This document shows positions 21,305 to 44,513 of a stretch of DNA of 64,000 bases, one piece after another. Position numbers and translations under genes: made by a program. Below the pieces are notes generated by a model, which searched no databases, was not told the DNA's origin, and worked only from the letters and a program-made list of their open reading frames with translations. Within the stretch, counting starts at the first letter, position 1. Each line of letters begins with the position of its first letter. Source of the stretch: Nannobrachium achirus. Taxonomy: Eukaryota > Chordata > Actinopteri > Myctophiformes > Myctophidae. The stretch spans positions 37,626,820 to 37,690,819 of the forward strand of contig OY997661.1 of assembly GCA_963921795.1 (NCBI GenBank), read 5' to 3'.

Positions 21305-21422
21305 ATGGCGGGTCGCTTTGTCTCATATTCTTACTTCCAAGTCACTCTGTGGACTCTAAAGTCATGGATGGTGATTTATCTCTACGTGTTATGGATCAAC
21401 TGTTACAGCGCTTCTGTTACAG
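21305..21422 (+). CDS. Ig-kinase-KEN exon 1 (signal peptide)
   Basis: ATG in the context ACAAGATGG. The exon encodes 39 residues with a hydrophobic core (WMVIYLYVLW) ending near SASVT, and ends ACAG|GTTGGT in phase 1. Cleavage near residues 35-39 is plausible. Confidence 0.7.

Positions 21423-44513: not shown

Follow-up and report, generated by a model that had tools for sequence, protein, structure and literature searches.

A predicted SLAM/CD2-like surface receptor with a kinase-KEN tail in Nannobrachium achirus and the multi-copy family to which it appears to belong

In this work, we analyzed a 64,000-nucleotide stretch of the Nannobrachium achirus genome (hereafter the window; C24:37626820-37690819 of 1.66 Gb in 564 contigs) and the relatives of a gene that it carries. 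The product of this gene is probably a single-pass surface receptor, in which a SLAM/CD2-like Ig-Ig-transmembrane (TM) part is joined via a phase-1 intron to a kinase-KEN cassette, and the gene is one member of a large family. The family pattern is the most important result: judged from sequence, a single type of kinase-KEN cassette has been combined with three or more kinds of sensor. The window gene comprises eleven exons on the plus strand, from an ATG at 21305 to a stop codon ending at 44513, which encode 765 residues in a single frame. All exon borders carry GT/AG and the phases (1-1-1-1-1-2-0-2-0-2) are compatible, with exons 1 to 5 joined in phase 1. The parts are as follows.

Exon 1, 21305..21422, plus strand: ATG and signal peptide (MAGRFVSY...SASVT); donor CAG/gttggt, phase 1.
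Exon 2, 25968..26267, plus strand: V-like Ig domain without the usual cysteine pair; D.G.Y motif; I-set 22.0 bits (cut-off 23.7).
Exon 3, 28785..29063, plus strand: C2-like Ig domain; four cysteines common to six relatives in the alignment.
Exon 4, 30146..30316, plus strand: stalk, TM helix and basic juxtamembrane stretch; donor AAG/gtgagtg, phase 1.
Intron 4, 30317..34591, plus strand: meeting point of the Ig half and the kinase-KEN half.
Exon 5, 34592..35143, plus strand: acidic linker, kinase N-lobe, Lys375 and HRD at 463; the first Met is residue 377.
Exon 6, 35749..35905, plus strand: DFG (483) and activation segment.
Exon 7, 40643..40694, plus strand: short exon within the activation-segment insert, included in exon 6 in the C14 copy.
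Exon 8, 42375..42595, plus strand: kinase C-lobe.
Exon 9, 42766..42949, plus strand: start of the KEN domain.
Exon 10, 43646..43779, plus strand: KEN with the active-site motif FIRVLREH.
Exon 11, 44384..44513, plus strand: last part of KEN, with the stop codon; an AATAAA word lies at 45444.

The identity of these parts was assessed with profiles, hydropathy and relatives. The signal peptide is of modest hydrophobicity (best 19-mer hydropathy 1.44 in the first 39 residues), while hydropathy places a putative TM helix at residues 242-260 (mean 2.85). The kinase is clear, with a Pfam Pkinase match over residues 359-612 (E 2.8e-38) and Lys375, HRD463 and DFG483 all present. Among solved structures it matched IRE1 best (5.9e-39) and RNase L next (1e-19), and a three-row kinase profile reached IRE1 at 1.6e-47. 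The Ig and KEN calls are weaker in the window copy. Ig_3 scored 27.2 bits in the window protein, under Pfam's curated cut-off of 30, and exon 3 on its own gave no Pfam Ig match. Ribonuc_2-5A scored 14.3 bits in the whole protein and 20.8 bits (E 4.6e-4) in the isolated domain, against a cut-off of 23.3. It was the best Pfam match for all three KEN rows, the window's row being below the cut-off, and a three-row KEN profile searched against solved structures returned chance matches only, with no IRE1 or RNase L structure. Both weak calls are settled by relatives, since the KEN domain of an ankyrin-type family member scores 39.4 bits and the ectodomain profile finds matches. The KEN domain directly after the kinase is genuine, though diverged. 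Modelled alone and without an alignment, exons 2 and 5 gave a mean pLDDT of 39.0 and 46.2, respectively.

A six-row ectodomain profile searched against solved structures matched CEACAM with a total of 1e-22 from three stretches, the strongest of them at 28.2 bits, CD58 at 4.9e-8 (35.9 bits), CD48 at 1.8e-6, CD2 at 3.3e-6 and, weakly, SLAMF6 (0.013). The term SLAM/CD2-like therefore denotes the better single-stretch match (CD58) and is not exclusive, since CEACAM is best in total. A relative also showed a weak Receptor_2B4 match (19.2 bits; cut-off 21). The ectodomain would consist of a V domain without a disulfide and a C2 domain with two, as in CD2/SLAM receptors. An earlier note on this DNA had read eleven exons in one frame of 765 residues, and the exon borders and phases bear this out. 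The domain order that it gave (signal peptide, two Ig domains, TM helix, kinase, KEN) is upheld by profiles, hydropathy and relatives, and its SLAM/CD2-like reading of the Ig domains by the six-row profile and the shared cysteines. Of the HMM searches that it had proposed as a check, Pkinase came out positive, but the Ig profiles (I-set, Ig_3) and Ribonuc_2-5A stayed below the Pfam cut-offs in the window copy. As an observation, the Ig-Ig-TM-kinase-KEN gene model is confirmed.

When the kinase exon was searched against the whole genome, 89 matches corresponding to 87 loci were found. For Ig exons the counts are lower bounds, 135 of 345 SLAM-like and 150 of 363 butyrophilin-like candidates having been scored: SLAM-like ectodomain exons (V, C2 and TM together) matched at least 137 stretches, or at least 119 with a V-only query, and butyrophilin-like V exons number at least 150. 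The name butyrophilin-like is presumptive and based on the motif; Pfam gives V-set only. Among the matches listed, 26 kinase loci have an Ig exon within 15 kb, which is butyrophilin-like at 22 and SLAM-like at 4; the other 61 have none of the searched Ig exons within that distance. At all of these 26 loci, and at all 30 with a listed Ig exon within 40 kb, the nearest such exon lies upstream of the kinase in the same orientation, although the 26 do not represent 26 independent events because many loci form tandem arrays on C14 and C17. On this orientation count, the chance adjacency of a single gene was rejected. Of the 87 kinase loci, 48 are followed by a KEN exon less than 15 kb downstream, and among the matches listed this holds for 25 of the 26 Ig-bearing ones. 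SLAM-type Ig within 31 kb of a kinase was observed 7 times among the matches listed, whereas 2000 draws with randomly placed kinase loci averaged 0.14 and never exceeded 3; this test covered ten contigs only and ignored local clustering. C24 holds at least 56 SLAM-like Ig matches vs. two kinases, and most SLAM-like Ig exons there are without a kinase, which, like the 61 kinase loci with none of the searched Ig exons nearby, speaks against the receptor reading.

Individual copies show the same order at close range. At C14:4291215-4295030, a SLAM-like copy has Ig, Ig, TM and kinase in one frame within less than 4 kb, with phase-1 joints and a TM-kinase intron of 658 bases; the V, C2, TM and kinase exons of this copy (C14:4.29 Mb) were read, and three KEN exons lie downstream. 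At C14:5.30 Mb, phase-1 borders were likewise seen for the V-set (49.0 bits), TM and kinase exons, and at C17:61.02 Mb V, C2 and TM exons precede a kinase exon that also has an upstream Met. With microsatellite translations disregarded, a scan of the 1.5 to 3 kb preceding each of 31 kinase loci found a TM exon with a phase-1 donor at 11 of them, and at 0 of 6 ankyrin-type loci. Six copies on C20 and C22 carry an N-terminal region and the kinase in one open frame; Pfam identifies ankyrin repeats in the C22 copy (44.3 bits), and the remaining copies were judged by eye. Because about two dozen further places show the same order, the window gene appears to belong to a receptor family and not to be a freak gene. 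The earlier note had pictured a gene built from the kinase-KEN module and a swapped sensor. Module and swap are borne out, the swap being general in this genome (ankyrin, pyrin, butyrophilin-like and SLAM-like); the gene is part of a multi-copy family and no single oddity.

Several other loci deserve mention. Kinase exons at C17:2877110-2877649 and C9:59737147-59737704 lie in open frames of 1334 and 985 residues, the N-terminal parts of which may hold further sensors. In several kinase copies (L023-L029, L037-L041 and others) the kinase exon begins with a Met; these copies may stand alone as genes or may be preceded by untranslated exons. Butyrophilin-like V exons with identical scores in 383-residue frames occur at C24:37751053, C5:69223048, C70:38938 and C518:125964, perhaps as a copied gene or element.

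Since intron 4 is where the two halves meet, the model depends on the join of exons 4 and 5. It is conceivable, but improbable, that a SLAM-like Ig-TM gene ends in or after exon 4 and is followed by a separate kinase-KEN gene, the two being joined on paper only. The genome does have short-tailed Ig-TM genes without a kinase (L010, L016) as well as kinase copies that stand alone and carry an ATG within the kinase exon, and intron 4 contains eight AATAAA/ATTAAA words, owing to which shorter Ig-only transcripts are possible. However, exon 5 has no Met upstream of Lys375, so that a kinase starting within it would be without its catalytic Lys. The exon 5 acceptor is moreover homologous to that of the copy on C10, where a pyrin exon (24.9 bits; cut-off 22.9) ends in a phase-1 donor and is followed, after a 168-base intron, by the kinase exon; a scan of the window for a pyrin, ankyrin or butyrophilin-like exon found none. 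The common order at all 26 of the listed Ig-bearing loci and the compact in-frame examples on C14 also speak against two genes. Less probable still is a misassembly at the intron 4 repeat that fused two distant loci. The cassette border does fall at a TG microsatellite and dispersed repeat, and the cassette is 92 percent alike to that on C10. Yet a segmental duplication flanks the gene on both sides within one contig, the 6 to 7 percent divergence from C10 is too high for a misplaced read of that locus, and the family pattern is independent of the window copy.

DNA likeness between the window and C10 extends from about 34526 to 44852, introns included, while likeness to a sister Ig unit (C24:37.71 Mb) stops at about 33368. 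Retroposition of the cassette is ruled out by the introns common to the window and C10. In the sister unit the TM exon is interrupted by about 260 bases, and the stretch up to C24:37720900 contains no kinase. For a kinase tree, L022-L051 together with L052, L054 and L055 were used, less L036 (the same locus as L052) and L043 (in which the row-cutting motif was not found), giving 31 rows. The window grouped with the pyrin-type C10 copy from another chromosome (SH-aLRT 100), and the C14 SLAM-type copy fell among butyrophilin-like copies (SH-aLRT 100). A single origin by fusion for all SLAM-type copies, tested as one clade, was rejected (p-AU 8.3e-6), the C17 row having a long branch. That the window cassette is closest to a pyrin-type copy and not to other Ig types indicates that sensors and cassettes have been re-paired. 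Because two changes among the Ig, ankyrin and pyrin states suffice on this tree, it is no proof that pyrin preceded Ig; the pyrin-type C10 copy may itself descend from a copy of Ig type. The proposal that the gene was built on the IRE1 layout holds for the kinase-KEN module, but the nearest cassette is the pyrin-type C10 copy and not IRE1 itself.

A dispersed repeat and TG microsatellite at window positions 34374-34527 end where the C10 cassette likeness begins, and an inverted copy lies behind the sister Ig gene. Two segment copies flank the gene (1-10992 and 56125-63648; 83 to 98 percent alike in pieces), the latter being part of a unit in which the sister Ig gene without a kinase follows. 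Positions 6293-8356 consist of 576-base tandem units, 99.8 to 100 percent alike, with repeated open frames, and a tandem duplication of about 1.24 kb (46391-48866; 95.8 percent alike) directly follows the gene. Two self-complementary stretches of about 510 and 300 bases (18259-18768 and 23617-23915), each 68 percent alike to its own reverse complement, are possibly mobile elements.

The comparison with C10 also bears on whether the gene is maintained. Only two indels separate the coding exons of the two copies; they measure 63 and 3 bases and preserve the frame. If coding sequence had gained indels as fast as non-coding sequence outside simple repeats, 17.7 frame-breaking ones would have arisen over the cassette, and 0 were observed; gaps of 2, 3 and 2 in the blastn alignment of coding sequence were edge effects according to global alignment. 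The probability of no stop after 93 random substitutions is 0.023. The cassette dN/dS between the window and C10 is 0.93 (kinase 1.03, KEN 0.74; exon 5 alone 0.84). For the kinase exon of the C14 Ig-type pairs tested it is 0.21 to 0.45, indicating purifying selection. The window branch is longer (0.12 vs. 0.025 for C10); of the amino-acid changes, 13 fall to the window, 6 to C10 and 1 to neither. A glycine of the ATP loop, kept in all 29 other rows, is lost in the window copy. Among 68 columns conserved in 90 percent or more of these 29 rows, the window copy departs at 9 and C10 at 7, compared with 0 to 9 for the others (leave-one-out). Fast amino-acid change with a held frame fits relaxed constraint as well as adaptation. 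The gene could accordingly be read as a decaying young chimera, fused by duplication and no longer, or never, a working receptor. The dN/dS of 0.93, the faster branch with its excess of changes, the missing glycine and the kinase-less sister Ig unit with its split TM exon agree with this. We nonetheless consider it unlikely, as all eleven exons are without a stop or frame-breaking indel, where 17.7 would be expected over the cassette alone, and two other copy pairs likewise reach a dN/dS of 0.78 and 0.90.

A further alternative concerns the output of the working receptor that we favor. Of 21 stretches examined (L024 and L071 being one locus), 15 yielded the KEN motif, and the 6 stretches without it are all Ig-type. 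The window motif, FIRVLREH, keeps R and H of the Rx4H site and has Val in place of the polar residue after R; the C10 motif is FIRILREH, and all five ankyrin-type loci read FIRNLHEH or FIRNAREH. In each of the 7 other readable Ig-type copies H stands in place of R, and the H of the site is lost in 3, kept in 3 and beyond the break in one stretch. The active-site passages of PMC3710099 report that RNase L activity needs R and H and that the polar residue after R contributes. RNA cleavage by the window protein is therefore possible, and by the older Ig-type copies doubtful. The chances seem to us about even that the Ig-type members are pseudo-RNases, in which KEN serves for dimer formation only and which signal by the kinase or dampen active ankyrin-type members. 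The loss of R in all 7 Ig-type copies outside the window and of H in 3, the retention of FIRN..EH at all 5 ankyrin-type loci and the residue requirements of RNase L favor this view, whereas the window copy retains R and H and the kinase motifs are kept. The pseudo-RNase reading is compatible with the receptor explanation and differs from it in the last step only. The earlier note had proposed a kinase/RNase output; the kinase motifs (Lys375, HRD, DFG) are in place, but the RNase was stated too surely. Overall, that note is partly supported: its outline stands, but its scope was too narrow and its confidence in an RNase output too high.

Gene structure, family and repeated same-strand order were observed directly, and on these a working scheme may be built. 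The same cassette would act behind inside-cell sensors (ankyrin repeats, pyrin) or surface sensors (butyrophilin-like V, SLAM-like Ig pairs). At the presumed surface location, a ligand, or an Ig domain on a neighboring cell, would cluster the receptor, and the clustered cytosolic kinases would come together, undergo mutual phosphorylation and form back-to-back pairs like those of IRE1. The paired KEN domains would then deliver the output, which in the window copy, where R and H are kept, may be RNA cleavage, and which in older Ig-type copies without R is more likely kinase signaling, scaffolding or a block on active family members. An Ig ectodomain over kinase-KEN would let a cell answer contact or ligand by kinase signaling or local RNA decay. 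We tentatively suggest, at somewhat less than even confidence, a vertebrate family of surface Ig receptors that couples outside recognition to RNA cleavage in one protein and evolves by re-pairing the kinase-KEN cassette with interchangeable sensors.

The established sensors in front of a KEN domain are a lumenal stress sensor (in IRE1) and an ankyrin 2-5A sensor (in RNase L). As predicted for the window protein, IRE1 (ERN1/ERN2) is a type I membrane protein with a cytosolic kinase followed by KEN, and it is the best match of the kinase among solved structures. The IRE1 sensor is a lumenal domain, whereas the window protein has an Ig pair, and its KEN is far diverged, with Val after R; the fish's own IRE1 KEN exons lie at separate loci on C3 and C4. 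RNase L shares with the window protein the kinase-KEN part with a FIRxxxEH-like site, and with the ankyrin-type copies of this genome the order ankyrin-kinase-KEN. Unlike RNase L, the window protein has a putative TM helix and no ankyrin repeats (no match in protein or window). The KEN partners listed in Table 1 of PMC3710099 are kinase, ankyrin, CCCH, UBI and BRCT, with no Ig. No description of an Ig-kinase-KEN receptor was found in open-access full texts, and sequence databases may already contain the family unnamed. Members of the CD2/SLAM family (CD48, CD58, CD2, SLAMF6) share with the window protein a V domain without the cysteine pair and a four-cysteine C2 domain, but the window tail is a kinase-KEN cassette, and CEACAM has the best total profile score. 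Several CD2/SLAM family members lack the ITSM tyrosine switch motif in the tail. Butyrophilin/B7-like V-set receptors provide the ectodomain type at 22 of the 26 Ig-kinase loci among the matches listed; the window differs from them in its SLAM-like ectodomain and its kinase-KEN cytosolic part. Set beside IRE1 and RNase L, the sensor swaps on one cassette may serve as natural constructs for asking which activation step of these enzymes is merely to bring two cassettes together.
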